From Martelella sp. HB161492 (GTDB taxonomy: Bacteria; Pseudomonadota; Alphaproteobacteria; Rhizobiales; Rhizobiaceae), in NCBI RefSeq assembly GCF_013184775.1, contig NZ_JAATVV010000016.1, positions 1 through 64,000 of the forward strand: a stretch of 64,000 bases of DNA, in the 5' to 3' direction. Of this stretch, positions 1 through 19,915 are shown piece by piece; position 1 is the first letter of the stretch, and each line of letters opens with the position of its first letter. A program made the translations under genes and the position numbers. Below the pieces are notes generated by a model. The model worked only from the letters and a program-made list of their open reading frames with translations. It was not told the origin of the DNA and did no database searches.

Positions 1-221
1 ATAGACCTACCTAACCAATACCGTCAACGCTATTTCTCCCCTTTTTCCCAAAAATCTCATAACACACTGGTTCTTTTGATCATTTTTCAAATTTTCGATG
101 GATTGCGGTTTCAGGATCGACGCGGCTTTGCCGTCTGCACAGGCAGATGGCAGACATGTAGGGTGCACACAAATTAGGCAGAAACTGCGGGCAAAACCGA
201 CGAATGACCGATGATATGCAT

Positions 222-3135: not shown

Positions 3136-3144
3136 AGCTTTCCC

Positions 3145-4616: not shown

Positions 4617-4626
4617 GAAACTACCG

Positions 4627-5829
4627 TCATTTCTGGTTGTTGCGGCCGATCGGGATATTCATCTCGTCGGGCTGAATGATACGGACCAGTTCGGGAATTG
4701 CCCAGTCGACATTCGGATCAACCTTGATCTTGAAGTGGATCATCGACTGCAGCGCCTGATGGTCTTCCGGACGGAAGGTCATTTCGCCCTTGGGCGTATC
4801 AAAGCTCATGCCTTCCATGGCCGTGATCAGACCTTCGGTATCAAGCGTTTTGGCCGTTTCGATCGCCTTGACCACGGCAAGCGCCGCCGCCATGCCGCCA
4901 GCGGTGAAGAAATCCGGCGGCGTGCCATAGCGCGCCTCATGGGTCTTCACCAGCCAGTCATTGATCGGATTGTCGTAGTCCTCGTAATAGTAATAGACCG
5001 CACCTTCCATGCCGGGCACGCGCTTATACGTCGGCAGCACCGAGAGAATATTGCCGGTGGTCGACAATTCGATGCCATAGCGGTCCGGCTCCATGGCGAG
5101 GATCTTGCCCATCGGGTCACCGCCGCCGGCGACATAGACGAGAATGACTTTGCGGCCCGGCTTGTCTTTCAGCGCGTTGAACATGCGTTCGGTGGCAGCG
5201 GTGAAATCGGTGGTGCCCTGCGGCACATATTCCTCATCAACGACCGTGGCGCCGGAGCCATCCAGTGCAGTCTTGAAGGCGGTGATGCCGTCACGGCCGA
5301 AGGCATAATCTTCCGCCAGCGTTGCGACATAAAGGTTTTCGTCCGGCTTCAGCGCCAGCGCCTGGGCCTGCATGTCCATAGACGAATTGCGCGAGGTCTT
5401 GAACACATAGCGGTTGCTGTCGGGCCCGGTCAGGCTGTCGGCAACGGCCGGCTCGACGATCAGCAGCTTTTCATATTCTTCGGCGACCGGCAGCATGGCC
5501 GCCGTGACACCGGATGATGTTGCCCCGACGGCCAGCAGGACATCGTCATCGCCATAGGCTTCCGCCAGCACTGCGCGGGCAACGTCCGGCTTGAACTGCG
5601 TATCCTTGTGGATGATCTCGATCGGATGGCCATTGATTTCGTTGGTGCCGTTGGTGGCATATTCCAGCCCGAGCTCGAAACCGGTCTCGCTCTGCTTGGA
5701 AAAAGTCTCAAACGTGCTGCCGGAAAGCCCGTGCACCAGGGCGATCTTGATCGGATCACCGGCATGGGCGCCCGTCGCCAGAGCCACGCCAAGAACAAGC
5801 GGCCCGAAGAGCCGCGACAGATTGGTCAT
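4627..5829 (-). CDS. LIV-type periplasmic substrate-binding protein
   Basis: 400-residue periplasmic binding protein of the leucine-binding (type I, Peripla_BP_6) fold. The N-terminus MTNLSRLF is followed by a hydrophobic stretch and a likely cleavage after AHA (about residue 23). The mature domain opens DPIKIALVHGLSG. It is the first gene of the operon and fixes specificity. The start at MTNLSR is preferred over an upstream MEETIM because it gives a normal signal peptide. Binding-site residues cannot be assigned to a known ligand. The neighbouring CoA-transferase and thiolase favour a compound giving a beta-keto acid over a simple amino acid, which is inference. Confidence 0.85.
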   Translation of the reverse strand: MTNLSRLFGPLVLGVALATGAHAGDPIKIALVHGLSGSTFETFSKQSETGFELGLEYATNGTNEINGHPIEIIHKDTQFKPDVARAVLAEAYGDDDVLLAVGATSSGVTAAMLPVAEEYEKLLIVEPAVADSLTGPDSNRYVFKTSRNSSMDMQAQALALKPDENLYVATLAEDYAFGRDGITAFKTALDGSGATVVDEEYVPQGTTDFTAATERMFNALKDKPGRKVILVYVAGGGDPMGKILAMEPDRYGIELSTTGNILSVLPTYKRVPGMEGAVYYYYEDYDNPINDWLVKTHEARYGTPPDFFTAGGMAAALAVVKAIETAKTLDTEGLITAMEGMSFDTPKGEMTFRPEDHQALQSMIHFKIKVDPNVDWAIPELVRIIQPDEMNIPIGRNNQK

Positions 5830-5907
5830 GATTGTCTCCTCCATGAAGGGCAAGCACGACAGTTGTCGGCACGCTTGCCCTGACATATCCTCCGGCGGGA
5901 AGACTAC

Positions 5908-6531
5908 ATGAGACCGGCAGGCTTGGGGAATATTGTGAGAATACGTATTGAGGACGCCTTTCGCGATGGCGACTTTGCCGAACTTGCCTTTACCTATGCG
6001 CCGGTCGGTCTTGTTGTTACCGAAAACCGGGTGATCCGCGACTGCAACCTGACCTTTGCCCGCATGTTCGGCTATGAGCGCGATGCCCTGAAGGAACAGA
6101 CCTTCTCCCTGCTCTATCCATCCGAAGCCGAATTCGTGAATATCCGCGATCGTGGCGTCGAACAGCTGAAACAGGGCAACAGCTACTGGGATGAGCGGAT
6201 CATGGCGAAAAAGGACGGCACGCTGTTCTGGTGCCGGGTACGCGGCCATTCCTTCACACCCGACGAACCGTTGCAGCGCGCGGTCTGGAGCTTTGCCGAC
6301 CTCTCCATCTCCCGCCCCTATCATGCGCTTACCCGGCGCGAGCGTGAGATCGTCTCATTGCTGTCGGAAGGACTGACCAGCAAGGAAATTGCGCAAAGGA
6401 TCGAGCTCTCCCACCGCACGGTCGAGGTCTATCGCGCCCGGATGCTGAAGAAGTTCGGCGTTGCCAATACCAGCGCCCTGCTGCAGGCGCTGGGCGATGC
6501 CGAAGCTGCCCATATCGTCGAACGCGGCTGA
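5908..6531 (+). CDS. PAS-LuxR transcriptional regulator, divergent from the LIV operon
   Basis: 207-residue regulator with an N-terminal PAS domain (about residues 25-130, including RDCNLTFARMFGYERDAL and FWCRVRG) and a C-terminal LuxR-type HTH (about 140-200: LTRREREIVSLLSEGLTSKEIA). It has no receiver domain, so it probably senses a ligand directly through PAS. The ATG has a GGGAAG ribosome-binding site six bases upstream. A GTG at 5935 with GGGGAA before it is an alternative start. It is divergent from the binding-protein gene across 78 bases, so it is the likely local activator. A perfect ten-base palindrome (AATACGTATT, 5940-5949) falls inside its first codons. Confidence 0.85.
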   Translation: MRPAGLGNIVRIRIEDAFRDGDFAELAFTYAPVGLVVTENRVIRDCNLTFARMFGYERDALKEQTFSLLYPSEAEFVNIRDRGVEQLKQGNSYWDERIMAKKDGTLFWCRVRGHSFTPDEPLQRAVWSFADLSISRPYHALTRREREIVSLLSEGLTSKEIAQRIELSHRTVEVYRARMLKKFGVANTSALLQALGDAEAAHIVERG

Positions 6532-6538
6532 ATGAACC

Positions 6539-7102
6539 TCACTGCTCGCTGTTGAGGAACCATGTCAAAAGCTCGGCGCTGTTGGCAAGGCCGAGGGCGC
6601 GGGTCAGTCGCAGCCGGTGCGCTTCAACAGTGCGGGCCGACAGCCCGATCTCGGCAGCGATCGCCGCATTGGTCTTGCCCTGCGAGACCAGCGTCAGGAT
6701 CTGCCGCTGCCGTCCCGTCAGCTTCATCGTGGCACCTGTCACCGGTCGGGTCATCGGTTCGAAACAGTAGAGCGCTGCAGCGAAGGGATCCGTGAGATCA
6801 TAGGAGCGGCCGCGCACCCGGCACCAGAAGCGCTGGCCTGAACTGGCGGCCATGATCCGCTCGTCATAATAGATGGCGTGTTCCGGCAGGTTCACCCGCC
6901 ACATCTCGCCGGTGCGGACGAAATCCTCCAGCCCCGGATAGAGACGCGAGAAACTGCGGTCGATCAGGCTTTCGCGCTCATAGCCGAAAACGGCGGCAAA
7001 TTCGGCGTTGCAATCGCGGATAATGCGATGCGTGGCATAGACCATGGGCACCGGGATATCGGCGAGCGGGAAGCGGTATGGTGCGGTTTGCGGTGTGGCC
7101 AT
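6539..7102 (-). CDS. second PAS-LuxR transcriptional regulator
   Basis: 187-residue regulator with the same architecture as the neighbour at 5908: a PAS domain (about 10-120, with RDCNAEFAAVFGYERESL and FWCRVRG) and a LuxR HTH (about 125-185, LTGRQRQILTLVSQGKTNAAIA). The two share clear similarity and converge tail to tail with only 7 bases between their stops, so they probably arose by duplication. This one faces the CoA-transferase operon across 82 bases, whereas the first faces the transporter. Each may control the operon it faces, or they may act as a heteromeric pair; the sequence cannot decide. Confidence 0.85.
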   Translation of the reverse strand: MATPQTAPYRFPLADIPVPMVYATHRIIRDCNAEFAAVFGYERESLIDRSFSRLYPGLEDFVRTGEMWRVNLPEHAIYYDERIMAASSGQRFWCRVRGRSYDLTDPFAAALYCFEPMTRPVTGATMKLTGRQRQILTLVSQGKTNAAIAAEIGLSARTVEAHRLRLTRALGLANSAELLTWFLNSEQ

Positions 7103-7103
7103 A

Positions 7104-7117
7104 TCGTAGAAATACGA
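7104..7117. promoter_or_regulatory. dyad operator candidate between PAS-LuxR 2 and the CoA-transferase operon
   Basis: Perfect inverted repeat TCGTA-GAAA-TACGA directly next to the regulator start codon, in the short intergenic region between two divergent genes. The TACG core recurs in the palindrome AATACGTATT at the start of the other PAS-LuxR gene. It is a plausible autoregulatory or shared LuxR-family site; binding is inferred only. Confidence 0.4.
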
Positions 7118-7184
7118 CTAACGCCTGACAAATATCAAGCCTATTTTAGTCTTCAGAAACGGTTGGAAACCGGGAGGAGACATC

Positions 7185-7898
7185 ATGAAAAAGCAATTTT
7201 CGTCTGCGGCGGAGGCGCTGGCCGGCGAGATCAGGGACGGCATGGTGATCATGTCGGGCGGCTTCGGCCTGTGCGGTATCCCCGAGGCACTGATCGAGGC
7301 CGTCGAGGCCTCTGGCGCGCGGGATCTGACAGTGATTTCCAATAATGCCGGCGTTGACGGGATCGGCCTTGGCCGGCTGCTGGCGACAAAGCAGATCCGC
7401 AAGATGATCTCGTCCTATGTCGGCGAGAACAAGCTGTTTGCCGAACAGTTTCTCTCCGGCGCGCTGGAGCTGGAATTCAACCCGCAGGGCACGCTGGCGG
7501 AGCGCATCCGCGCCGGTGGCGCCGGTATTCCTGCCTTCTTCACCAAAACGGGTGTCGGAACCATGATTGCCGAGGGCAAGGAAGTCCGGACATTTGACGG
7601 CGAAGACTATCTGATGGAGCGCTCGCTGTTTGCCGATATCGCACTGGTCCATGCCTATAAGGGCGATAGCGAAGGCAATCTTGTCTACCGCAAGACCGCG
7701 CGCAACTTCAATCCGATGATGGCAACCGCGGCGAAGCTGACAGTGGCGGAGGTCGAGCATCTGGTGCCCGCCGGCACCATCGATCCCGACCATATCCACA
7801 CGCCCGGCATTTTCGTCTCGCGTATCGTCGAGGTGCCGAACCCGAAGAAGCATATCGAGCAGCGCACCACCCGCAGCCGCACCGAGGAGGCAGTCTGA
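7185..7898 (+). CDS. 3-oxoacid CoA-transferase subunit A
   Basis: 237-residue alpha subunit of a family I CoA-transferase (SCOT, AtoD or PcaI type). The glycine-rich opening MVIMSGGFGLCGIPEALIEA and GAGIPAFFTKTGVGT are family hallmarks. With subunit B it moves CoA from succinyl-CoA or acetyl-CoA to a 3-oxo acid in the cytoplasm. A GGGAGG ribosome-binding site stands just upstream. The stop overlaps the subunit B start by one base, so the two subunits are made in stoichiometric amounts. Acetoacetate and 3-oxoadipate are both possible substrates; sequence motifs do not separate them. Confidence 0.9.
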   Translation: MKKQFSSAAEALAGEIRDGMVIMSGGFGLCGIPEALIEAVEASGARDLTVISNNAGVDGIGLGRLLATKQIRKMISSYVGENKLFAEQFLSGALELEFNPQGTLAERIRAGGAGIPAFFTKTGVGTMIAEGKEVRTFDGEDYLMERSLFADIALVHAYKGDSEGNLVYRKTARNFNPMMATAAKLTVAEVEHLVPAGTIDPDHIHTPGIFVSRIVEVPNPKKHIEQRTTRSRTEEAV

Positions 7899-8557
7899 TG
7901 GCCTGGACACGTGAACAGATGGCGGCCCGCGCGGCGCGTGAACTGCAGGATGGCTTCTATGTCAATCTCGGCATCGGCATTCCGACGCTGGTGGCCAATT
8001 ACATTCCCGAGGGCATGGATGTCCGCCTGCAGAGCGAGAACGGCATGATGGCCATGGGCCCCTTCCCCTTCGAGGGCGAGGAAGATGCCGACCTGATCAA
8101 TGCCGGCAAGCAGACGGTGACGGCGCTGCCGGAGACAAGCTATTTTTCCAGTGCCGACAGTTTCGCCATGATCCGCGGCGGCCATATCGATCTGTCGATC
8201 CTCGGTGCCATGCAGGTGGCGCAAAATGGCGACCTCGCCAACTGGATGATCCCCGGCAAGATGGTCAAGGGCATGGGCGGAGCGATGGACCTCGTCGCCG
8301 GCGTCAAGCGTGTCGTCGTCGTCATGGAGCATGAGGCCAAGGGCAAATCGAAACTGCTGAAACAGTGCGATCTGCCCTTGACCGGCAGCCGCGTCACCGA
8401 TCTCATCATCACCGATCTCGGCGTCTTCACCGTCGCCCGCCATGGACCGGCAAAACTGACGCTGATCGAGCTTGCCGATGGGGTGAGCCTTGAAGAAATC
8501 AGGGCGAAGACCGAAGCCGATTTCGATGTCGCTCTGACGGCGGGAGAACTGGCATGA
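7898..8557 (+). CDS. 3-oxoacid CoA-transferase subunit B
   Basis: 219-residue beta subunit carrying the catalytic glutamate in SENGMMAMGP (E47) and the family segments NLGIGIPTLVANYIP and GGHIDLSILGAMQV. It completes the heteromeric CoA-transferase with the upstream subunit. Its stop overlaps the thiolase start by four bases, so all three enzymes are one translationally coupled unit. Length and motifs are normal. Confidence 0.9.
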   Translation: MAWTREQMAARAARELQDGFYVNLGIGIPTLVANYIPEGMDVRLQSENGMMAMGPFPFEGEEDADLINAGKQTVTALPETSYFSSADSFAMIRGGHIDLSILGAMQVAQNGDLANWMIPGKMVKGMGGAMDLVAGVKRVVVVMEHEAKGKSKLLKQCDLPLTGSRVTDLIITDLGVFTVARHGPAKLTLIELADGVSLEEIRAKTEADFDVALTAGELA

Positions 8558-9729
8558 GTGATATCGTCATTGCCGGCGCCTGCCGCACCGCCGTCGGCGG
8601 TTTCATGCGGTCGCTGTCAACGGTGCCCGCCCACGAACTGGGTGCTGCCGTGATCCGCGAAGCGCTGTCCCGCTCAAATGTCTCGGGCCATGAGGTGGAC
8701 GAAGTCATTCTGGGCCAGGTGCTCACCGCCGGTCAGGGGCAGAACCCGGCCCGGCAAGCTGCGATGAAGGCCGGGATTTCCGAATCCGCCACCGCCTTCG
8801 GCATCAACCAGGTCTGCGGTTCGGGCCTGCGCGCCGTTGCCCTTGGCATGCAGCAGATCATTACCGGCGAAGCCCGGATCATGGTCGCAGGCGGCCAGGA
8901 GAACATGTCGCTTTCGCCCCATTGCCAGCATCTGCGCGGCGGCACCAAGATGGGCAATGCCACCATGGTCGACACCATGCTGAATGACGGGCTGATGGAT
9001 GCCTTCGGCGATTTCCACATGGGGATCACCGCGGAAAACATTGCCAGCCGCTATCAGATCAGCCGGGCACAGCAGGATGCCTTTGCGCTCGCCAGCCACC
9101 ACAAGGCAGCTGAAGCCGATCGTGAAAACCGCTTTGTTGACGAGATCGTGCCTTTTTCCGTGAAAAGCCGGCGCAGTGAAGTGATCTTTGACCGCGATGA
9201 ACAGATCCGTCCGGATGCCGACGAAACCACATTGGCCAAGCTTCGCCCTGCCTTTGATGAGAACGGCACGGTGACGGCCGGCAATGCCTCGGGGCTGAAC
9301 GACGGCGCTGCCGCGATGGTGCTGATGTCCGCGACCGAGGCCGATCTGCGCGGCATTCAGCCGATGGCCCGCATTGCTGCCTTCGCCACCGCCGGCGTCG
9401 ACCCGGCGATCATGGGCATCGGCCCGGTCAATGCCTCGCTGAAGGCGCTCGAGCGTGCCGGATGGTCGATTGATGATATTGATCTGGTCGAGGCCAATGA
9501 GGCCTTTGCCGCCCAGGCCTGCGCCGTCAACAGCGAGCTCGGCCTTGATCCGGCGAAGGTCAATGTCAATGGCGGGGCCATCGCGCTCGGCCATCCGATC
9601 GGCGCTTCGGGCGCGCGCGTTCTCGTCACGCTCTTGCACGAAATGAAGCGGCGGAACGTGCGGAAAGGTCTGGCAACGCTGTGCATCGGCGGCGGCATGG
9701 GCGTTGCCATGTGCGTCGAGCGGGGCTGA
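8554..9729 (+). CDS. acetyl-CoA acetyltransferase / thiolase
   Basis: 391-residue thiolase. The nucleophilic cysteine is C88 in NQVCGSGLRA, the active-site NEAFA loop is present, the catalytic histidine lies in NGGAIALGHPIGASGAR, and the C-terminal cysteine is in CIGGGMGVAMC. The length fits biosynthetic or degradative acetoacetyl-CoA thiolase better than the roughly 400-residue beta-ketoadipyl-CoA thiolases, but overlap is large. It cleaves the 3-ketoacyl-CoA made by the preceding transferase. The operon ends at a clear hairpin. Confidence 0.9.
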   Translation: MSDIVIAGACRTAVGGFMRSLSTVPAHELGAAVIREALSRSNVSGHEVDEVILGQVLTAGQGQNPARQAAMKAGISESATAFGINQVCGSGLRAVALGMQQIITGEARIMVAGGQENMSLSPHCQHLRGGTKMGNATMVDTMLNDGLMDAFGDFHMGITAENIASRYQISRAQQDAFALASHHKAAEADRENRFVDEIVPFSVKSRRSEVIFDRDEQIRPDADETTLAKLRPAFDENGTVTAGNASGLNDGAAAMVLMSATEADLRGIQPMARIAAFATAGVDPAIMGIGPVNASLKALERAGWSIDDIDLVEANEAFAAQACAVNSELGLDPAKVNVNGGAIALGHPIGASGARVLVTLLHEMKRRNVRKGLATLCIGGGMGVAMCVERG

Positions 9730-9885: not shown

Positions 9886-9921
9886 ATACCAGAATTCATA
9901 ACTGAAGATTTATTTCATATT

Positions 9922-9952
9922 TTGAAAATGAATATTATTTCTCTTATATAAT
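9922..9952 (+). promoter_or_regulatory. candidate promoter of the RiPP precursor gene
   Basis: TTGAAA (9922-9927) and TATAAT (9947-9952) with a 19-base spacer, ending 56 bases before the precursor ATG. The spacer is slightly long, so the -35 match is less certain than the perfect -10. No other gene lies between this site and the precursor. Confidence 0.45.
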
Positions 9953-10008
9953 TGATCCACCGCAAAACATCGATATGCATATAGACTTCCAGGAACAGTG
10001 AGGAAGTT

Positions 10009-10152
10009 ATGAAAGAGCAAATCGAAAACAACGATATTCTTGAAAACGAAGTGATGGACGACATTCGCGAAGAATTGCGCAAAAATGTCGAGGCCTATCT
10101 CGAGAGCCACGTGCTCGAGGCAAATCCCAGCAACATGATCATCCATCAGTAA
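10009..10152 (+). CDS. putative RiPP precursor peptide (47 aa)
   Basis: Short gene found by reading the gap. It is preceded by GAGG five bases before the ATG and encodes 47 residues. The first 37 residues are strongly charged and acidic, predicted helical (DDIREELRKN and EAYLESHVLE), and look like a leader. The last ten, ANPSNMIIHQ, are uncharged apart from one histidine and form the likely core. There are no cysteines and no aromatic residues except Y30. It is the first gene of a unit whose downstream products are a HExxH protein, a B12 radical SAM enzyme, a methyltransferase and an exporter, which is the usual order for RiPP operons. I recognise no precursor family. A structural or regulatory small protein is possible but less likely. 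Confidence 0.7.
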   Translation: MKEQIENNDILENEVMDDIREELRKNVEAYLESHVLEANPSNMIIHQ

Positions 10153-10162
10153 GGATGTGGCC

Positions 10163-10196
10163 ATGCGCCGCCGCACGCTTTGATGCGGCGGCGCAT
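10163..10196 (+). terminator. attenuator hairpin between precursor and modification genes
   Basis: Perfect 13-base stem, ATGCGCCGCCGCA (10163-10175) and TGCGGCGGCGCAT (10184-10196), around an eight-base loop, starting 10 bases after the precursor stop. No uridine run follows, so partial readthrough and 3'-end protection of the precursor mRNA are more likely than full termination. Such hairpins keep precursor levels well above enzyme levels. Confidence 0.75.
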
Positions 10197-10223
10197 CTGT
10201 CTTCAATTCAGGCGGACCAACCC

Positions 10224-11069
10224 ATGAACGGCGATCCTTTTCAGCTGCCCGTCTATAAGACGGAGACGGTTCTTTCTTCCATTGACGCACTTCTTAGCGT
10301 CGTCGACCCGGACAGAACGGGTGGGCAGACGCAACGTGCCCGCTTTTTTGCTTTTCTCAACAGGGTCCTCAAGGTTCCTGTCCCGCACGATCCCATCCAT
10401 GAGCGGCCGCTTCTGATCGCCCGGCCCAACACGCAGGACGAGGAAAAACTTCTGCATGCTCTGATGGGCAAGGGATCGGACGCCGATATTGCCACCGTTC
10501 TTTTCGAAGACAACGAGGTCCGCCTGCTGAAGGCGCGGATCAACGATGCACTGGATCAGATTGCGATCCTCTATCCCGAAACCTATCGCGGGATCACCGC
10601 CGTGGTCGGCGCCTTCGTCTTCGCCCGCGTCAAGGGCTATGGCGGCGGCACCTCGTCGGATGCGATCGGCGTTATCTGGTGCGGCATGCACAATCCGGCC
10701 GCCGACGTTGATGACTATATCGAGCTGATCCTGCACGAATATATGCATCAATGCCTGTTCATCGATGATCTCTGCCACCGGATCTTCCGCTATTCGATGA
10801 AGGTGCTCGAGAATTATCCTGCCCGTTCGGCGATCCTCAACCGCGAGCGCCCGCTCGACAAGGCGTATCACTCTGCATTCGTCGCCTATATCCTGATGCG
10901 CCACCGGCTCCACACGTCCGGCCAGGTGCTTGAATATCTGGATACGACGCGCCGCTGCCTTGAGGCAACGCGTGCGCAGGAAGCGGGCTTGACCGCCCAT
11001 GGCGCAGCCCGTCTCGGAGAACTCGAAGCGGCCTTTGCACGGCTCGAAAGGGAGCACGAGGCTGCATGA
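10224..11069 (+). CDS. HExxH-motif putative peptide-modification protein
   Basis: 281 residues. The motif HEYMH (171-175) lies in a hydrophobic helix, with a further conserved-looking histidine at H216 (AYHSAF) as a possible third metal ligand. No signal peptide or membrane helix is present, so it is cytoplasmic. HExxH proteins of this size next to RiPP radical SAM enzymes form a known family, now regarded as alpha-ketoglutarate-type peptide beta-hydroxylases. Assignment of this protein to that family comes from motif and context. A leader-cleaving zinc protease is the main alternative. The start at MNGDPF has AGGCGG eight bases upstream; the longer frame (MWPCAA) begins inside the hairpin. 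Its stop overlaps the next start (ATGA). Confidence 0.7.
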   Translation: MNGDPFQLPVYKTETVLSSIDALLSVVDPDRTGGQTQRARFFAFLNRVLKVPVPHDPIHERPLLIARPNTQDEEKLLHALMGKGSDADIATVLFEDNEVRLLKARINDALDQIAILYPETYRGITAVVGAFVFARVKGYGGGTSSDAIGVIWCGMHNPAADVDDYIELILHEYMHQCLFIDDLCHRIFRYSMKVLENYPARSAILNRERPLDKAYHSAFVAYILMRHRLHTSGQVLEYLDTTRRCLEATRAQEAGLTAHGAARLGELEAAFARLEREHEAA

Positions 11070-13027
11070 GCCGCATTGATATCGCACTGGTAAACCCGCC
11101 CTTCTGGCCGGCGCTCCATTCCTCGCTTGCGCTTGGCCTGCTTCAGGGCGGCCTGGAGGACCGGGGCTATCGTGCCCGCCAGTTCAGCCTCTATCTCGAT
11201 CTTGTCGAACGGCTCGGTGTTGAACATTATCTGAAAATCGGTGAGCTGCCCGGTGTTTCCTTCTTTCTCGGCGACTGGATCTTTGCCGAAGCGGTGTTCG
11301 GGGCGGATGCTGCGCGTGACGAAGCCTTTTTTGCCTATGCCCGCCAGCCTGACCGGGCCGACCGGACGGTAACCCGGCTTCCACAAGCACTTTTGAACCG
11401 CGCCCTGGCACTGCGGGGCGATATACCGGCCATGATCGCGCGCTGGGCCGACGCGCTGGCTGCTTCTGGCGCGCGCATTTTTGCCTTCTCCAATGTCTTC
11501 CAGCAGGCCCTCGCCGGCATTGCGATTGCCCGGGCGCTGAAACAGCGCGTGCCGGACTGTCTGATTGTCTTCGGCGGCGCCAATTGCGAGGGACCGGCCG
11601 GCCGCGTGCTGATCGACGCTTTCGGCGTTATCGATGTGGTCGTCAATGGCGAAGGCGACCTTGCCTTGCCTGAGATCGTATGCGCCTTCCTTGCAGACAA
11701 GCGGTCGGAAATCGCCAGTATTCCAGGCTGCATCACACGCGAGACAGCGCCCGGCCGCGCCGTTCCAGCGCAGGCGATCACCTGCCTCGACGATCTGCCC
11801 GAGCCGGTCTATCGCGATCTTTATCATGACCTCACCGCGCGCGGCCTGGCCGAAACGCTGCAGCCAAGCCTCGTCTTCGAGACGTCGCGCGGATGCTGGT
11901 GGGGGGCAAAGCACCACTGCACCTTTTGCGGCATCAATTCTGAACGCATGGCATTCCGCGCCAAGTCGCCGGAAACGGCGCTCAGGCAGATCAAAAACGC
12001 CGTTACAGCCCATCGCCCGGCCCGGATCTTCACCTCTGACAACATCATGGATGTGAAATATCTCGAAACATTCGTGCCGATGCTCGCCGAGGCCGGGCTT
12101 GATCTCGACATCTATTATGAGCTGAAATCCAACCTCAAGCGGCACTATCTGGCAAGTTTCCGCAAGGCCGGGATCCTGTCGATCCAGCCGGGCATTGAAG
12201 CGCTTGACGACGACATCCTCGCTCTGGTCGACAAGGGCGCTCATGCCGGTCAGCATGTGCGGCTTCTGAAGGGCTGTGACGAGGAAGCCCTTGAGTGCAA
12301 CTGGAACCTGCTGTTCGGCTTTCCCGGCGAACGCGCCCCCGCCTATCAGCGGACACTGGCGCTGCTGCCGCTACTGAGCCACCTGCCGCCGCCAGCCGAT
12401 TTCACCCGTTTCGTGCTGCTGCGCTTCAGCCCCTATTTTGAACGCAGCGCCAATTACGGTGTCAGAAACATCGCGCCCGATCCGGCATACCGGCATGTCT
12501 ATGCGCTCGACGACCGGCAGCTCAATGATCTCGCCTATTACTTCACCTTCGAACATGACGAGGTCGATGCCGATCTGCTCAAACCATTGTTTGCACGGCT
12601 CTACGACGCTGTCGCACAGTGGAAGAAGGCCTATCACTATACGATCCTGATGGCGGGAGAAGACGGACAGGGCGCGCTTCTGGTGCTCGACACCCGCGAT
12701 TGCGCCAAAACGCTGCGCCATCGCCTTGACCCGGCGACCGCAACCGTCGCCCGTGCCACCCGAGAGGGCGCAACGCCCGAAAAACTCTTCGAGAAACTGA
12801 ATGGTGTGCTGTCAAGATCCGAGATCGAGACAGCTCTGGAAACGCTGACCGCGCGCAACATGATGGCTCATGTTTCCGGGCAAAATATTTTTCTGCCGGT
12901 TGATGTCGATGCCTATGCCATTGGCGGGCGCCAGGCCATGCCGGCGCTCAGAACCTTCAAGCGGGATGCCTTCTACAAGGCCTTTCCCGAGATCGCAGCT
13001 TCGCAAGGCCAGAGGCTTTCCGCATGA
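11066..13027 (+). CDS. B12-binding radical SAM RiPP maturation protein
   Basis: 653 residues. Residues 1 to about 230 form a cobalamin-binding-like Rossmann region (opening ALVNPPFWP; GGANCEGP near 170; NGEGDLALPE near 194). The radical SAM core begins near 268 with the cluster motif GCWWGAKHHCTFCG (C277, C285, C288), a C-x7-C-x2-C spacing. That spacing and the CWWG/KHHCTFCG wording are typical of the RiPP-maturation radical SAM C-methyltransferase family. The C-terminal region beyond about 500 is less conserved and may bind the precursor. Expected chemistry is methylation of an unactivated carbon in the core peptide. It is translationally coupled to genes on both sides. Confidence 0.85.
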   Translation: MSRIDIALVNPPFWPALHSSLALGLLQGGLEDRGYRARQFSLYLDLVERLGVEHYLKIGELPGVSFFLGDWIFAEAVFGADAARDEAFFAYARQPDRADRTVTRLPQALLNRALALRGDIPAMIARWADALAASGARIFAFSNVFQQALAGIAIARALKQRVPDCLIVFGGANCEGPAGRVLIDAFGVIDVVVNGEGDLALPEIVCAFLADKRSEIASIPGCITRETAPGRAVPAQAITCLDDLPEPVYRDLYHDLTARGLAETLQPSLVFETSRGCWWGAKHHCTFCGINSERMAFRAKSPETALRQIKNAVTAHRPARIFTSDNIMDVKYLETFVPMLAEAGLDLDIYYELKSNLKRHYLASFRKAGILSIQPGIEALDDDILALVDKGAHAGQHVRLLKGCDEEALECNWNLLFGFPGERAPAYQRTLALLPLLSHLPPPADFTRFVLLRFSPYFERSANYGVRNIAPDPAYRHVYALDDRQLNDLAYYFTFEHDEVDADLLKPLFARLYDAVAQWKKAYHYTILMAGEDGQGALLVLDTRDCAKTLRHRLDPATATVARATREGATPEKLFEKLNGVLSRSEIETALETLTARNMMAHVSGQNIFLPVDVDAYAIGGRQAMPALRTFKRDAFYKAFPEIAASQGQRLSA

Positions 13028-13749
13028 GAGAGAGTATGAACCGGGTCTTCGGCGCGGCCATTGCCGGCTATTTCGCCGGCAATACCGATGAAAAGCTGAT
13101 CATCCATCGCGAAGACGGCTTTACGCAGCAATATGACATGGCGCAATATTTCGACAAGGAGCCGGCCGGCTTTGAATATCACGCCCTCAGCCGCGCATCC
13201 GGCCGCGTGTGGGATATTGGCTGCGGCGCCGGTCGCACCCTGCTTGCGCTCGCCGAGCGCGGCATTGCCGCAACCGGGATCGACTGTTCGCAAGAGGCGA
13301 TCGCCGTCTCGCGGGCACGTGGCGCTGCCAATGCCGTCCGGCTTGATATCCTCAATGCCCCGCTCGCCCCCCGCCAGGTCGACAGCTTCATGCTGTTCGG
13401 CAACAATATCGGTCTGGCCGGCTCATGGAGCGGTGCGCTCAGGCTGCTGGAGCGACTGCGTCTTGCGGCTGCCCCCGGTGCGCGGCTCTGGTGCGATTCC
13501 ATCGACATCTGTGCCCCCGCCCTGACACGGAGCCGCGACTATGCCCGCCGCAACATCGCCGCCGGGCGACCGCCGGGGCTCACCATTTCGCGCCTTCAGT
13601 ACAATTCGAGGCTCTCGCTCGCCGAGGGCTGGCTGTTTCTGTCGCTCGACGAGCTTCAGACCCTGGCCATTCAAACCGGCTGGACCATCGAAGAACAATG
13701 GCAGGATGTCGAAAAGGGGCCATGGCTCGCAGAACTGAGGGCGGACTGA
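13024..13749 (+). CDS. class I SAM-dependent methyltransferase of the RiPP cassette
   Basis: 241 residues. SAM-binding motif I is VWDIGCGAG (62-70), followed by the acidic end of beta-2 at GIDCSQEA (85-92). The ATG overlaps the radical SAM stop by four bases; a second ATG at 13036 after a GAGAGAG stretch could also serve. It probably modifies the peptide by O- or N-methylation, perhaps on a hydroxyl placed by the HExxH protein or on a carboxylate; this is inferred from context. It is soluble and cytoplasmic. A possible 35-residue gene begins at the base after its stop. Confidence 0.8.
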   Translation: MRESMNRVFGAAIAGYFAGNTDEKLIIHREDGFTQQYDMAQYFDKEPAGFEYHALSRASGRVWDIGCGAGRTLLALAERGIAATGIDCSQEAIAVSRARGAANAVRLDILNAPLAPRQVDSFMLFGNNIGLAGSWSGALRLLERLRLAAAPGARLWCDSIDICAPALTRSRDYARRNIAAGRPPGLTISRLQYNSRLSLAEGWLFLSLDELQTLAIQTGWTIEEQWQDVEKGPWLAELRAD

Positions 13750-13857
13750 ATGATGAAACAGAAACGGCTGCCCGGATTGCGCCGGTACCGGCAATGCCAT
13801 GGCCACGGCGATGGCACCGCCAGCAATCTGCCCGGATTTGATCTGACACCCCCCTGA
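13750..13857 (+). CDS. candidate second small peptide gene (35 aa)
   Basis: An ATGATG start begins on the base after the methyltransferase stop, with AGGGCGG about seven bases upstream. It encodes 35 residues: a basic N-terminal half (KQKRLPGLRRYRQ) and a glycine/histidine-rich part with a single cysteine (CHGHGDG), ending in DLTPP. It shows no similarity to the 47-residue precursor. It could be an alternative substrate, a coupling peptide or chance. The remaining 157 bases to the exporter contain no convincing gene. Confidence 0.3.
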   Translation: MMKQKRLPGLRRYRQCHGHGDGTASNLPGFDLTPP

Positions 13858-14014
13858 CGCATTGCGTTCATGAAAGGGCGCCGCCAGAGCGCTGGCACGC
13901 CCGATCTTCTCTGCAGCAGACAGGCAGACAAAGCCCGTCATCTGCAGCCAAAGGCAATTTGAATCCGATGCCCGGCAGCAGATCTGCAGCCTGGCAAGCA
14001 TCGAGGGGTAAGCC

Positions 14015-15424
14015 ATGACATTTCTCACGCAATCCTTGCCGGCTCAGGACCACCTGCCCGAACACCGCTATTCCGCGATCTTTACCTTTGCCCGGTTCGG
14101 ATCACCGCATTTCTTCGTCCTGCTTGGACTGACACTCGTGCAGCAATCGCTTGTCGGCGGAACGGTCTATTCACTGGCCGCTGTGGTCAAAAATGTTGCT
14201 GGCGGACAGAACCCATGGCCAATGCTGATATTGACCGCCTGCCTGTTTCTGCTGCCGCATCTACCGGCCTATTTCATTCAGCCGACCCAGGCGCGATGGC
14301 AGGTCGCCATCATGGTCGGCCAGGTGCAGCGCTATTCCAGGCGCTTTGCCCGGCAGCCGCTCGATTATGCCAACGGACCGGTGCGCGACCGCGCGCTCGC
14401 GGCGGCGGCGTCCGAGGCCTATGTCGTCGCCCAGTCAACCGTGACGATTGTCGAGGGTTTCCTGAGCAGCTTCTTCAATGCGCTCTTCACCATCGTGCCG
14501 ATCCTGATCTTTGTTGATGCGAAATATTTTCTCGCCTATGCGATGACGGCCGTGATTTCGCTCGTCACATTCCGCATTCTGCATCGCGATATCCGCGTCT
14601 GTTCCCGGGCCGCCCAGGAGGCCCGCGTCGCACTCGACAGGGGCATTCGCAGCAGCTGGACGCGGCTGACCATCGGCTCGCAGCGCCAGCGCCAGGCTGC
14701 CGCGCAGCGCATGAACGCCGCGCTGAACGACGCCGAACGACGCTTTTGCGCCCGCGAACGCCGGATTGCCGCCGGCACAAGTCTTGTCGGTGCGCTGGCG
14801 CTGGCACTGATCCTCACCATCACCTTCAGGCTGTTTTCAACCCATGCCGGCGACATCGCCTTTCTCAGCGTGCTGATCGCCAGCTTTCCCCGCCATATCC
14901 AGATCATTTCGCAGATCATCGGCGTGGCTCAGCTTTGCTTTTCCGCGCCACGGCTGCTTGAAGAGATCCGCAATATCGATCTCGACGACCTGCCGTCGCA
15001 AACGGAGAAGAATGTCAGCCGCCGCATCAGTGCCGACCGCATCACCATCAACCATGTACCGCTCGCCGGCGATCTCGAAACCATAGATGCCACCCGGTTT
15101 GCGCACGGGCGCCATCTGATCGAAGGGCCGAATGGCTGCGGCAAGTCGACCCTGCTTGCCCTGCTCGCGGCGCGGGCGGGGAAGAAGCCCTATGTGTTCA
15201 TACCCGCAGCGCCTGCCGCCCTTGCCGAACCGGATGCAACCGGCTCCACCGGCGAGATCATGCTCCGCCTGATCAATGAGATGCTGGACGACGATACGGT
15301 TGACCTGATCTTCCTGGATGAATGGGACGCCAATCTCGACGCCAATGCGCGCCGGACCATTGAGCACGCCCTTGACCGCCTTGCCGAACGGGTGACCGTG
15401 ATCGAGGTGCGGCACCCGCGCTGA
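14015..15424 (+). CDS. compact ABC exporter with degenerate ATPase domain
   Basis: 469 residues against the usual 570-600 for a half-exporter. Membrane helices occupy about 28-185 and 253-310. The ATPase part (about 335-469) is roughly half normal size: Walker A GPNGCGKST (371-379), Walker B LIFLDE (431-436) and a histidine at 467 in the H-loop position. The helical subdomain with a canonical LSGGQ is missing, replaced by a short GSTGE (410-414). There is no N-terminal C39 peptidase domain, so leader removal must happen elsewhere. The ribosome-binding site GAGGGG precedes the ATG. Probable role: export of the finished peptide, or self-immunity. Confidence 0.75.
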   Translation: MTFLTQSLPAQDHLPEHRYSAIFTFARFGSPHFFVLLGLTLVQQSLVGGTVYSLAAVVKNVAGGQNPWPMLILTACLFLLPHLPAYFIQPTQARWQVAIMVGQVQRYSRRFARQPLDYANGPVRDRALAAAASEAYVVAQSTVTIVEGFLSSFFNALFTIVPILIFVDAKYFLAYAMTAVISLVTFRILHRDIRVCSRAAQEARVALDRGIRSSWTRLTIGSQRQRQAAAQRMNAALNDAERRFCARERRIAAGTSLVGALALALILTITFRLFSTHAGDIAFLSVLIASFPRHIQIISQIIGVAQLCFSAPRLLEEIRNIDLDDLPSQTEKNVSRRISADRITINHVPLAGDLETIDATRFAHGRHLIEGPNGCGKSTLLALLAARAGKKPYVFIPAAPAALAEPDATGSTGEIMLRLINEMLDDDTVDLIFLDEWDANLDANARRTIEHALDRLAERVTVIEVRHPR

Positions 15425-15537: not shown

Positions 15538-17808
15538 CTACCGGGTGATCCCGCCGGTCTCTGCCTCAGCCCCGCCTGCCGTTACCCTCACCCGTTTCGT
15601 TCCGAGCCCCGCATGGGAGACGGCGATGGTGATGACGCCAGGACCGCGGGCCGTGACCCAGAACCCGGCCGTTCCGCCATTCAGCGACCGCTGAGCGGGA
15701 CCGGCAAGTGCGCCCGGTCCCTCGATGCTGACCGAGATCGGCTCGAACAGATAGGGCAGCCTGTTGCCGGCCTGATCCAGCACCCGCACCATCACCCGGA
15801 CGCAGTCATCTTCGCCGATGGCCGCCGCATCGGGCGTCACCGACAGGTCGCTCGGCAGCGGATTGGATATGTAGCGGGCGGTCTTGACCGGTGCGCCATC
15901 GACATAGCCGGTGAAGGTGACATCCTGCCAGCCCATGCCCCAATGTCCGAATTCCGGCCCGGGATAATCCTCGCGACGGATGATCACCGGCGCGTGCGGC
16001 AGATGCTTGTAGAGCGCGCGGTCAGGCGTGAAGCGGCGTGGCGGATGACCGGCGAAATCGAGTTCCACCTCATCGCAATTGGTCAGGATGATCAGTGGCA
16101 GAACACCGCCATGATTGCGGTCGCCGCGCGTCCAGTAGGTCACCGGCATCAGCGTGACACCCTCCTGCGGGTCGCATTGGCTGGCATAGACATAGGCTGC
16201 GAATTTCGGCTCGCGATTCATATCCATGACGCCATGATGGCAGATCCGGTCGCCGGAGCCGAAATCCTTGTGGGTATTGTAGTCGAAGGCACACCAGCCG
16301 ATCGCGCCCGCAATCTCCGGATCGCCATAGGCGGCATCCAGAACCTCAAGATGGCGGGTGACATGTTCTGCCTGCCGCTGCTCCTGATCGTAGACCTTGG
16401 TCGGATACATATGGCCATTGAACTCGGTGATCAGATAGGGCACCGGCCGGTCCAGCCCCGTCACTTCTCGGCGTGGCCTGAGCGCCGTGCGCGGTCGCTG
16501 GCCGCTGATTTCCTCCATATTGAGGATGAAATCATTCATCGAATAGACGTCTTCCAGAAGCTCGCTGTCGGTGATGCAACGCACGCCGGTGGTCGGACGG
16601 GTGCTGTCCAGCGCATGGGCGACGCGGTTGGTTTCGGTGTAGAAGTCATGCACGTCGCGGCTTTCATTGATGCGCACGCCCCAGATGATGATCGAGGGGT
16701 GGTTCCAGTCGCGCCGGATCATGGCAGCGACATTGTCCACCGCCGCCGCCTGCCAGGCATCGTCGCCGACATGCTGCCAGCCGGGGATTTCCTCGAACAC
16801 CAGCAGGCCGATCTCATCACAGCGGTCGAGAAACCAGCTGGACTGAGGATAATGCGAGGTGCGGACGATATTGAGCTTCAGCTCATGCTTCAGGATCTCG
16901 GCATCGCGGATCTGGGCCGCACGGCCGAGCGCATAGCCGATATGGGGGAAGGACTGGTGGCGATTGAGCCCACGCAGTTTCAGCGGTCTGCCGTTCAGGC
17001 TGAAACCTTCGGCTTCGAAGGCGATAGCGCGGAAACCGAAGCGCACCGATCTGACGTCTTCACCGCTCGCCGTCGTCAGTTTCAGCGCCACGCGGTAAAG
17101 CACCGGGCTGTCGATATCCCAGAGTGCCACATCATCAAGCCCGTCAAAATCCAGCGTCACCTCTTCGCCAGAGACCGGCAGAGACCCGGTCGCAATCGCC
17201 ACGCCTGCCATCGTCTCGATCACCGCCTCGAGCCGGGCGCCATCCAGCGGGCGGGTCTGAGGATTGGCGATCGAAACCACCATGTGAACGCGTTTTGACG
17301 GTGCCAGCGCATCCGGCGTCTCGACCTTGCAGTTGGCGATCGATACCGGTGCCCGGACTTCCAGCCAGACATCGCGGTAGATGCCGGCATAGGTGAGATA
17401 ATCGATCCGCGCACCGAAAGGCGGTATGGCCTTGTTTTCCGAGCCGTCGACCTTGACGGTGAGCAGGTTGTCGCCGACGATGAGGTGCTCCGTCAGCCGC
17501 GCTTCGAAGGGCGTATAGCCATCCGGATGCGCTGCAATCTCAACGCCATTCAGATAGACCACGCTGTTGGCCATGGCGCCATCAAAAACCAGCACCACCT
17601 CCCGGCCCGCCCAGTCCGCATCTGCCGTGAAACGCTTCTGATAGGTGAATGCCTTCCAGTACGACGTCTCGTCGAGATAGGAAAAGGGCAGATCGACCGC
17701 ATTATGCGGCAGGGTAACGGCTGAGCCCTGGCAATCCGTGCCGGCAGCAGCGGCGTGAAAGCCGGGCGAGAAGGTCCAGTCCCGGTTGAAAGAGACAATT
17801 TTGCGCAT
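15538..17808 (-). CDS. glycoside hydrolase family 2 enzyme
   Basis: 756-residue GH2 enzyme of beta-galactosidase/beta-glucuronidase type. Domains in order: sugar-binding jelly roll (1-170, with YWKAFTYQKRF and GYTPFEARLTEHL), immunoglobulin-like domain (180-270), catalytic TIM barrel (about 275-560, starting LRGLNRHQSFPHIGYA) and C-terminal beta domains. The acid/base glutamate lies in WGVRINESRD and the nucleophile in LITEFNGH. There is no signal peptide, so it acts on imported oligosaccharide. It is the last gene of the ABC/heparinase operon. The exact sugar (galactoside, glucuronide or other) is not resolvable. Confidence 0.85.
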   Translation of the reverse strand: MRKIVSFNRDWTFSPGFHAAAAGTDCQGSAVTLPHNAVDLPFSYLDETSYWKAFTYQKRFTADADWAGREVVLVFDGAMANSVVYLNGVEIAAHPDGYTPFEARLTEHLIVGDNLLTVKVDGSENKAIPPFGARIDYLTYAGIYRDVWLEVRAPVSIANCKVETPDALAPSKRVHMVVSIANPQTRPLDGARLEAVIETMAGVAIATGSLPVSGEEVTLDFDGLDDVALWDIDSPVLYRVALKLTTASGEDVRSVRFGFRAIAFEAEGFSLNGRPLKLRGLNRHQSFPHIGYALGRAAQIRDAEILKHELKLNIVRTSHYPQSSWFLDRCDEIGLLVFEEIPGWQHVGDDAWQAAAVDNVAAMIRRDWNHPSIIIWGVRINESRDVHDFYTETNRVAHALDSTRPTTGVRCITDSELLEDVYSMNDFILNMEEISGQRPRTALRPRREVTGLDRPVPYLITEFNGHMYPTKVYDQEQRQAEHVTRHLEVLDAAYGDPEIAGAIGWCAFDYNTHKDFGSGDRICHHGVMDMNREPKFAAYVYASQCDPQEGVTLMPVTYWTRGDRNHGGVLPLIILTNCDEVELDFAGHPPRRFTPDRALYKHLPHAPVIIRREDYPGPEFGHWGMGWQDVTFTGYVDGAPVKTARYISNPLPSDLSVTPDAAAIGEDDCVRVMVRVLDQAGNRLPYLFEPISVSIEGPGALAGPAQRSLNGGTAGFWVTARGPGVITIAVSHAGLGTKRVRVTAGGAEAETGGITR

Positions 17809-17839
17809 TGGTTCACCTTGCGGAGCGGATCATTGAAGC

Positions 17840-17869
17840 GCCCGGCCGGTCGGGAGGAACCGGCCGGGC
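17840..17869 (-). terminator. hairpin between heparinase-like and GH2 genes
   Basis: Perfect 11-base GC stem, GCCCGGCCGGT and ACCGGCCGGGC, with an eight-base loop, 21 bases downstream of the heparinase-like stop. There is no T-run, so partial attenuation or mRNA end protection is more likely than termination. Confidence 0.55.
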
Positions 17870-17889
17870 AAGAATGGTCTTCGAAAGCG

Positions 17890-19830
17890 TCAGACGATGC
17901 TGATCTTCAGTCCGAAGACCGGATGGCTGAGGTCAATGGCCTCAAGACGGATCGTGAAGACCCGTGGTCCCCAGACTTCCAGATGACGCGGATCGGTGAT
18001 TTCGACCGGGTCGACGCCGGTGACTTTCAGATTGTCGGGCCTGATCAGCAATCCGCCTTCCCGACCGGCAATCCTCACGCTCCCATCCGCGTTGACGAGG
18101 ATGTCGCGGTCGGAGACATTCAGCGGCAATTGGAAGTCCGTCAGCGCTTCGCCAAGCGTAATCTCGTCGCGGATATCGATGGTTGCCGCCTGATGATCGA
18201 AACTGATCTGGCGGAAGAAGCGATTATCGCGCGGTTCACGGAAATAGGCAGGGCTGGCATCAAGCGACAGAAGGCTCATCGCCCCGTCATGACGGTAGAC
18301 GACATCACGCGCTTCAGCTCCGACGCCGGCAAATTGCAGCATGCCGTTGACGGCAGGAACATTATGTCCCCTGGAGCTGATATGCCACATATCATAGCGG
18401 GTTTCGGTAAAGGTAGCGCGGGAATAGGCGCCCTGACCGAGATCGATCAGCAGCGGCTCGCCGTCAAGACAGACGCTGAAATGGCCGACATCATTATGGG
18501 AGTGGTGATTGACATGCGGATCGTTGCTTCCGGCAATCGCACTCAGCATCAGCCCCTTGCCGGGGGTCGTGTCCGAGCGGGCGATCAGCATCTGCATGTC
18601 GGCAAGGAAGACGCTTTTTTCGCAGACCCGCGGCGAAATCGCATCCTTGTCCGGCGTCCAGTACAACAGCCGCGTCAGATGAACCAGAAACTGGCGGGCA
18701 TAGTCATTGCGGCCACGCGCGCGGCCGGGACTGGCGATCTTGCGGGCAGCGATCCGGTCGACATCCTCGCGCACCAGACTGGCAAGCTGGGCTGAACCGA
18801 TCAGTTGCGCATAGCGGCTGATCAGGCCCTGATCGAGATCGATCTTCAGGCCGCCATCGGCGAAGTTGACGAACAGGTTGCTGCCGATGTTGAGCGGCAG
18901 GATATGTTCGCCGAAATTGCGGAACTTCTCATTTTCGCCGGGCTTAAGATCGAGGCCGAAACGCTCCTGAACCAGGCTGACGAAACCGGCAAGCCGGCCG
19001 GCGCTGACGACCCAGTAGCCGGGTCCCTCAATGCACGCCCCTGACGGTTCGATCGTGTCAAAGAAACGCTGCATCGGCACCATCAGCTTCAGCGCGATAC
19101 TGGCCAGCCGCTGCGGATCATCGACGACATAGCAGGCGGTCAAAAGCAGATTATGAGAGCACCAGGCGGTCCAGTTGTTGCGGCCAAGATACCAGCCGTA
19201 AAGCTTCGGTCCCTCCAGGAGGCTCAGCACCCGGCGGTCGATCTCGCCATGGATGCGATAATAAAGCGAGGGAACCGTTTCAAGCAGCAGGCTTTTCAGC
19301 AGATAGCAGCTTTCCGCAAGCGTTGCCGCCGTCTCGCAGGCGAAGAGATCGAGATAGTCATCGCCGGGAACGGGCAGCGGATCATCCGCTTTCCACGGAT
19401 TGGGCGCTTTGAACATCACCATGTCATGCTGGCCGGCGAAATTATGCGCCGGCACGCACCAGCTGACCTCGCCGAGAATGTCCCAGATATAATCGATGAT
19501 CTTGGCGACATAGGTTCCCTTCGCCGTCAGACATTCGGCCATGACGAGATGAGAGAGTTCATAGCGGCGCCGGAAATAATTCTCCTCGTAGAAGACGCGG
19601 TCTCCATTGGTCATGAAATTCATGTACATGGAGCCGGTCAGAGGATCGATTTCCTCGTCCAGAATACTGTCGGCGACCGCCAGAATGCCTTTCACAGGCA
19701 GAGCAAGGTTCGGATCAGCGGCGATCGCGTCCCAGCGCGTCCGCTCTTCGATACCGGGAAAGGGTTTCCAGTCCGGCCTTTGCTTCAAGCCTTCGAGAAG
19801 CTGTTCGACCTTAAACGCTTCGTTAAACAT
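17890..19830 (-). CDS. heparinase II/III-family polysaccharide lyase-like protein
   Basis: 646 residues with an N-terminal alpha/alpha-toroid (about 60-380) and a C-terminal beta-sandwich carrying heparinase II/III signatures: NHHSHNDVGHFSVCLDGEPL and a DLGQGAYSR/HNVPAVNG region, with likely catalytic histidine and tyrosine residues. The family cleaves uronic-acid-containing glycans by beta-elimination and includes oligo-alginate and glycosaminoglycan lyases. The N-terminus (MFNEAFKVEQ) has no signal peptide, pointing to cytoplasmic cleavage of imported oligomers. It lies between the ABC ATPase and the GH2 gene in one operon. Confidence 0.8.
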   Translation of the reverse strand: MFNEAFKVEQLLEGLKQRPDWKPFPGIEERTRWDAIAADPNLALPVKGILAVADSILDEEIDPLTGSMYMNFMTNGDRVFYEENYFRRRYELSHLVMAECLTAKGTYVAKIIDYIWDILGEVSWCVPAHNFAGQHDMVMFKAPNPWKADDPLPVPGDDYLDLFACETAATLAESCYLLKSLLLETVPSLYYRIHGEIDRRVLSLLEGPKLYGWYLGRNNWTAWCSHNLLLTACYVVDDPQRLASIALKLMVPMQRFFDTIEPSGACIEGPGYWVVSAGRLAGFVSLVQERFGLDLKPGENEKFRNFGEHILPLNIGSNLFVNFADGGLKIDLDQGLISRYAQLIGSAQLASLVREDVDRIAARKIASPGRARGRNDYARQFLVHLTRLLYWTPDKDAISPRVCEKSVFLADMQMLIARSDTTPGKGLMLSAIAGSNDPHVNHHSHNDVGHFSVCLDGEPLLIDLGQGAYSRATFTETRYDMWHISSRGHNVPAVNGMLQFAGVGAEARDVVYRHDGAMSLLSLDASPAYFREPRDNRFFRQISFDHQAATIDIRDEITLGEALTDFQLPLNVSDRDILVNADGSVRIAGREGGLLIRPDNLKVTGVDPVEITDPRHLEVWGPRVFTIRLEAIDLSHPVFGLKISIV

Positions 19831-19915
19831 GGCTTACAATTTTCCACATTCTGGCACAGGCCACCGGCACGCCGGCCGGCAGCTGCGCATCTGTTTCATT
19901 TCTTCTCTTCGCGTC

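Follow-up and report, generated by a model that had tools for sequence, protein, structure and literature searches.

What peptide is encoded and modified by the five genes at positions 10009 to 15424 of a 64,000-nucleotide stretch of DNA from Martelella sp. HB161492, and to which family does it belong? In this stretch, called here the window at its full length, a sequence-only reading had recognized a compact cassette for a ribosomally synthesized and post-translationally modified peptide (RiPP), composed of a 47-residue open reading frame (ORF), a HExxH protein with the motif HEYMH, a radical S-adenosylmethionine (SAM) protein with the motif CWWG, a methyltransferase and an ATP-binding cassette (ABC) protein. 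All these features are present, and the cassette is a genuine RiPP-type one, combining known enzyme families with an apparently undescribed precursor family. The proposed set of hydroxylase, C-methyltransferase, second methyltransferase and exporter is borne out by matches to curated profiles, by synteny in Martelella alba and by core-bearing small ORFs at 18 of 21 related loci. As a whole, that reading is supported in part, the points to amend being the standing of the precursor, the coupling of the ABC gene and the case for transfer. We estimate at about 0.7 the probability that the cassette makes a short, linear and exported RiPP that is hydroxylated, C-methylated and methylated again.

The precursor gene and the enzymes beside it

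The precursor gene (10009..10152, plus strand, like the whole cassette) encodes the 47-residue peptide MKEQIENNDILENEVMDDIREELRKNVEAYLESHVLEANPSNMIIHQ, which carries a leader block, NVEAYLESH, and a core ending with MIIHQ. It is under purifying selection between Martelella sp. and M. alba: over the 47 codons, the nonsynonymous rate (dN) is 0.096 and the synonymous rate (dS) 0.995 (dN/dS 0.096), with 4, 4 and 16 changes at codon positions 1, 2 and 3, and codons 19-47 give a dN of 0.044 and a dS of 1.59. The ORF stands before the HExxH gene in both species. Scans of the window precursor with NCBIfam and Pfam gave no known leader family, the NHLP/proteusin type included; its sole NCBIfam match is a chemotaxis model, at 12.5 bits for a cut-off of 1000. 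The selection test, together with the upstream ORFs of the relatives and the motifs described below, points to a precursor with conserved leader and core adjoining modifying enzymes, even if its profile score is weak.

The HExxH protein is a predicted alpha-ketoglutarate (aKG)-HExxH peptide beta-hydroxylase with the metal motif HEYMH. The ORF as listed (10155-11069, 304 amino acids) is longer than the gene: since the homologous M. alba ORF begins at the ATG corresponding to window position 10224, the start is placed there (10224..11069), which gives 281 amino acids in both species. The protein scores 55.2 bits with TIGR04267, above the curated cut-off of 40, and the same profile matches 17/17 members of the HExxH alignment at E <= 0.01. 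In a structural model of the protein, the metal motif sits within the ChlB fold. Published aKG-HExxH enzymes hydroxylate the beta position of His, Asp, Phe, Gln and Pro residues in RiPP precursors (PMC12636437, PMC13060819), and two of them additionally cleave the peptide backbone (PMC12636437); the transformations of MNIO and aKG-HExxH enzymes are described as not predictable at present (PMC13060819).

The third gene (11066..13027, 653 amino acids) encodes a predicted cobalamin-type radical SAM C-methyltransferase with the motif CWWGAKHHCTFCG. It matches TIGR03975 (rSAM_ocin_1) over its full length, positions 1-606 of 606, at 551 bits for a cut-off of 281.85, and the three-Cys cluster motif RGCWWGxKxHCxFC is found in the window protein and in 10/10 relatives read. 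Its sole solved relative at E <= 0.01 is TokK (7kdx, E 3.7e-10). The next gene (13024..13749) encodes a predicted class I SAM-dependent methyltransferase of 241 amino acids, for which Methyltransf_25 and Methyltransf_11 both score above gathering and whose solved relatives (9khp and 9klx, E about 1e-23) are named simply class I methyltransferases. The structure model of this protein, built from two sequences, was too poor for a fold search (pLDDT 40.5).

The last gene (14015..15424) encodes a predicted ABC exporter of 469 amino acids with a shortened ATPase domain ending ...LDEWDANLD...EVRHPR. It matches standard ABC models weakly and is, over its length, 22% identical to an Acinetobacter ABC protein that adjoins a HExxH gene; related ABC proteins adjoin the HExxH gene in three Acinetobacter loci. 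The same shortened exporter type also occurs on a Methylophaga plasmid (L096, 4342-6555) and on a Moraxella plasmid (L095, 4760-6951), where its neighbours are a DUF6875 protein and a tiny ORF, with the ending CGWGGGWSW in the former plasmid and PPVTPWRW in the latter; these two loci have the appearance of a second type of minimal peptide cassette, devoid of HExxH.

Four coupled genes had been claimed after the precursor. Overlaps of 4 bases do join the HExxH gene to the radical SAM gene and the latter to the methyltransferase gene, but the ABC gene starts 265 bases past the methyltransferase gene, so that tight coupling is limited to the first three. The supposed AT-rich break is likewise narrower than described, as it comprises a short stretch before the precursor (judged by eye) and the precursor itself (GC content 0.45), whereas the four other genes have a GC content of 0.59-0.64, like the window. 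The AT-rich leader/promoter stretch (9894..10008, plus strand) carries, directly in front of the precursor ATG, the ribosome-binding site AGTGAGGAAG; a promoter scan of this interval found no sigma-70-type match above threshold. Between the precursor and HExxH genes lies a stem-loop of 13 bp (10163..10196, plus strand): the 74 bases around it fold at z = -3.1, and M. alba has a 12-bp stem-loop in the same position (z = -3.0). It is possibly an attenuator or an mRNA end. An annotation of the region as a defence system was rejected, being based on weak partial matches alone.

Small ORFs beside related HExxH genes

Relatives were collected by a plasmid search with the HExxH protein (8 records), by scanning genomes with six aligned HExxH proteins (16 loci) and by a search of Bacilli, in which 8/398 genomes matched, three of them (G394, G395, G399) already among the loci and another (G510) looking like the L035 genome. 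The counts below refer to the 21 loci holding the 22 enzymes of the HExxH tree, L065 and L066 coming from one genome. Left outside this count are L023 and L041, which are Cytobacillus near-duplicates of L040 (the L023 enzyme being split over two annotated ORFs), the truncated or fragmentary L035/L054/L060, L039 and L058, and the partial, more distant matches L020 and L062/L067.

Beside HExxH relatives of Bacillota, staphylococcal plasmids and Acinetobacter stand small ORFs that share one or both of two motifs: the leader block N-I-x-x-[YF]-x3-[HY] and, at the C-terminus, a core reading M-x-[IL]-H or P-L-R-M-x-A-[YT]. Of the 21 loci, 18 have a small ORF in which this core, or some variant of it, is present: in 13 it is M-x-[IL]-H accompanied by the leader block (which in L028 takes the variant form RILLY), in four PLRM-x-A-[YT] and in one PLRIMY. 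Examples located upstream are ENIKRYVEHYLKSNAQMSLVVQPLRMQIHLTK in Geobacillus, ERILLYSKNHYESKSPALLVMMIHDENKKK in Laceyella and DNINSFAESHFNPDEAMKVVVQNMQIHDEE on a Staphylococcus aureus plasmid, their counterpart in the window being KNVEAYLESHVLEANPSNMIIHQ. The core reads PLRMIAY[EN]D in three Acinetobacter loci and PLRMFATD in one Bacilli genome. In Cohnella ginsengisoli (L034, 6656-6886), the precursor carries the core LLKMKIH twice, as SLLKMKIHE and VLLKMKIHE, and is possibly a natural two-core substrate of one HExxH enzyme. A small ORF with repeated LSLKEGKPIGPVRF / LSLKEGKPNGPSRF units also lies upstream of a distant HExxH protein (L067 of G1140, reverse strand, 5139-5375) and may be another multi-core precursor. 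On the precursors, Pfam matches were confined to three families with a single member apiece, the strongest being DUF2470 at 9e-4, and the window peptide had none; 16/17 precursors had no NCBIfam match, and a plasmid search with one Geobacillus precursor returned a single chance match (E 6).

When 860 small ORFs drawn from the window and from the M. alba region were scored with a profile of 12 non-Martelella precursors, the M. alba ORF ranked first and the window ORF second. Among 4829 small ORFs from the window and 35 loci, the leader motif occurs in 25, the core motif in 32 and both in 12; all 12 are these precursors (10 distinct loci), for about 0.17 expected if the motifs were independent, a figure to be read with motifs written after inspection of the sequences, the window peptide included. 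The motif expression misses L028, L034 and L063, which have a variant leader or a longer tail, as well as the Acinetobacter-type cores. The case for the membership of the window precursor is strengthened by its fixed position before the HExxH gene. The precursor, which had been called unfamiliar, is not an orphan and belongs with the small peptides of Bacillota and Moraxellaceae.

Exporters accompany most of these cassettes. They were seen near 18/20 loci compared, as major facilitator superfamily (MFS) proteins of one cluster in 14 and as the ABC type in four (the three Acinetobacter loci and M. alba). The MFS gene is spread over two ORFs in L034, a second MFS member is present in L032 and L036, and neither type was seen within the stretch examined in L037 and L040. 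Other genes recurring in three loci are an RRNPP-like regulator with helix-turn-helix (HTH_3) and tetratricopeptide repeat (TPR) domains, a Tn3-type transposase and a conventional ABC ATPase cluster. The regulators were found near 3/23 loci searched (L030, 800-2050; L032, 5090-6343; L033, 614-1927 on the minus strand). Small GerE-type HTH ORFs precede the precursor in L030 and L032. Tn3-type transposases (L028, 8618-11587; L041, 4080-7046; L065, 322-3336; two of the three scanned) make the Bacillota cassettes look mobile, in line with the plasmid carriage of others. The MFS protein of the S. aureus plasmid, the one that was scanned, scores 233.7 bits with the ryptide exporter model NF041056, below the equivalog cut-off of 575. 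Because of this ryptide-like MFS and of the RRNPP-like regulators, a signalling or density-controlled role is thinkable in Bacillota.

Relatives of the radical SAM protein and of the methyltransferase were found in M. alba only, among 25 HExxH records searched, some of them truncated or near-duplicates. This addition is limited to the two Martelella cassettes among the loci examined. In the HExxH tree, whose long branches, including those of the Martelella pair, drew a warning from the program, this pair groups with the Bacillota and Binatia rows, apart from Acinetobacter and G489 (support 100/99 for the split). The identity of the final core residue mostly tracks the split: it is His in the group of the Martelella pair, except for Tyr in L036 and none in L037 and L064, and Tyr or Thr in the Acinetobacter/G489 group. 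The Martelella cassette resembles an Acinetobacter precursor/HExxH/ABC set with the radical SAM/methyltransferase pair placed between HExxH and exporter.

Best read from these sequences, the precursor family is apparently undescribed and Martelella may represent an elaborated branch of a minimal RiPP family. We lean slightly towards the wider proposal of an undescribed family of very short RiPP precursors (NIxx[YF] leader; M-x-[IL]-H or P-L-R-M-x-A-[YT] core) occurring in Bacillota, staphylococcal plasmids, Acinetobacter and Martelella, in which Bacillota would have a single-enzyme minimal system of precursor, HExxH and MFS, sometimes beside quorum-sensing-type regulators, and Martelella would have acquired two further enzymes, a B12 radical SAM C-methyltransferase and another methyltransferase, leading to a hydroxylated and multiply methylated His end. 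No description of the precursor family, of a 'MQIH' core or of a Martelella RiPP was found among the best-listed open-licence literature matches.

Proposed product and competing explanations

In the proposed pathway, the HExxH enzyme, and probably the other enzymes too, would read the leader block NVEAYLESH, whose conservation suggests a recognition element. The HExxH enzyme would beta-hydroxylate a core residue. The His near the end, in M-I-I-H, is the likeliest target, because the near-terminal His/Tyr is among the most constant core residues. Going by their families, the B12 radical SAM enzyme would C-methylate an unactivated core carbon, with Ile or Met as candidates, and the class I methyltransferase would methylate a heteroatom, for example that of the imidazole or of the newly added hydroxyl. 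Export of the product would be the task of the ABC protein. Leader removal would fall to a protease encoded elsewhere, because none of the five cassette genes looks like a protease.

Several observations weigh against this pathway. The product of the cassette is not known, no leader protease is encoded among its five genes, HExxH enzymes can also cleave peptide backbones (PMC12636437), and the B12-binding domain PF02310 of the radical SAM protein scores 19.6 bits, below the gathering threshold of 32.1. As for the link to the precursor family, the profile scores are weak, at 5.4 bits for M. alba (E 0.55) and 2.9 bits for the window (E 3.3), with a third-ranked, unrelated ORF narrowly below at 1.9 bits, and the window core, NPSNMIIHQ, lacks the P-L-R of many relatives. 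Among the relatives, the L036 precursor ends RIMY, the small ORF of the Binatia locus L037 has the leader block without the core, the leader block of the Acinetobacter precursors is indistinct, and no upstream small-ORF precursor was found at L066. L064 (G670) has no separate precursor, the N-terminal extension of its HExxH frame holding a leader-like block, NMLRFMKNHL, which possibly reflects a precursor-enzyme fusion or a decayed precursor.

Among known systems, the pfl/pos clusters of Pseudomonas, as described in PMC12636437, share with Martelella a RiPP precursor, an aKG-HExxH hydroxylase, separate transporters and the lack of a nearby protease gene, but have an NHLP-type leader, a Gln-run/ARMD core, an MNIO-nitroreductase fusion and an acetyltransferase of their own. 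Martelella, for its part, has the 47-residue precursor ending M-I-I-H-Q, the B12 radical SAM enzyme and the class I methyltransferase. In the ChlB-type cyclophane RiPPs (structure 8s5f), HExxH is fused to a radical SAM domain that forms the cyclophane, whereas the Martelella radical SAM protein is separate and of the C-methyltransferase family. An NHLP/proteusin-type precursor is a usual partner of TIGR03975. The nine other TIGR03975 loci compared encode enzymes of the same family, 29-36% identical to the window protein. Upstream of 8/9 there is a candidate precursor of 68-130 amino acids, L013 having no clear one; one of these precursors is annotated as Os1348/NHLP type, and its SDGVIRPRC end recurs in two others. 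Relatives of HExxH, the methyltransferase or the ABC protein were not found beside any of the nine. The ryptide-type short RiPPs of streptococci are made from a tiny precursor by a modifying enzyme, with an MFS exporter. The Bacillota relatives have these three components in common with them but use HExxH as the modifying enzyme, and Martelella has an ABC exporter instead.

The main rival to a hydroxylated and methylated peptide, improbable in our view, is that the HExxH protein mainly cuts the backbone near the C-terminus, oxidatively or hydrolytically, like PflC and PosC at ARMD; the conserved L-R-M/K-M/N-M block would then signal the cut, and the H/Y end would be a tail that is thrown away. 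According to PMC12636437, both enzymes cut ahead of ARMD, PflC by hydrolysis if the leader is absent, and in many relatives the P-L-[RK]-M block is reminiscent of A-R-M. However, the same paper reports that cleavage by PosC is decided by Ala, with Arg, Met and Asp individually dispensable (PMC12636437), and the window peptide has no Ala there. The final H/Y is, moreover, among the most constant core positions, and cleavage in Martelella would take away much of the possible target of the methyl-adding enzymes.

It is somewhat less probable still that two independent substrates are involved, the HExxH protein acting on the 47-residue peptide and the radical SAM protein and methyltransferase, as neighbours by chance, on another molecule. 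Such a division would fit the 24 other HExxH records searched, in which no radical SAM or methyltransferase relative was found (with the same truncated or near-duplicate records as above), and the greater length of the candidate precursors at other TIGR03975 loci (68-130 amino acids), but the 4-base overlaps link the three genes in the window, the gene block is kept in both Martelella species and TIGR03975 is itself a RiPP maturation family. Very unlikely, finally, is a chance or regulatory nature of the 47-residue ORF, with the true substrate elsewhere: the weak profile score is all that speaks for it, against a dN/dS of 0.10 with an excess of third-position changes, a ribosome-binding site, the same place before HExxH in both species and the presence of both motifs.

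Spread in Martelella and significance

M. alba has the same five-gene cassette between the same flanking genes. The sequence-only reading had named as refuting evidence the loss of the small ORF where the four enzymes are kept; in M. alba, the sole such relative found, the ORF is present. The HExxH gene occurs in 2/13 genomes of the genus. In the taxonomic family, the radical SAM protein matched 9/394 genomes and the HExxH protein 3/394, the third by a weak partial match with an internal stop, and in the class the HExxH profile matched 2/385, the second partially (48 bits). DNA identity with M. alba is about 93% in the flanks (window 1-9729 and 15574-20021) and 82-83% in the cassette; the blastn alignment breaks off at 9729, its high-identity part ending at the atoB stop codon, and resumes at 9894. 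Between the two species, dS is 0.60-1.11 in the five cassette genes and 0.17, 0.35 and 0.31 in three flanking genes, so that the cassette copies are more diverged than the flanks, which could mean in-place exchange for a divergent copy or faster evolution of the cassette.

Gain by transfer, as had been suggested, is plausible but unproven. The patchy spread and the dS excess speak for it, whereas the enzyme genes have an ordinary GC content and no empty insertion site was found among the matches listed for the 13 genomes of the genus. In G1185, the two flanks keep their order and share a strand but are about 15 kb apart, and the interval holds other genes, with nothing cassette-like except short ATPase-motif matches.

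As to its role, one may guess at a secreted signal or a competition peptide. If the proposed family is real, it would provide small and simple aKG-HExxH substrates: in most Bacillota loci, a single HExxH gene adjoins a precursor some 36-45 residues in length, whose core is just a few residues long. The chemistry of the family would thus be directly testable. Martelella would add radical SAM C-methylation to the same tiny core, which would allow the order of the two modifications, and the dependence of one on the other, to be worked out on a single short peptide. The spread of these cassettes across phyla points to a shared use.

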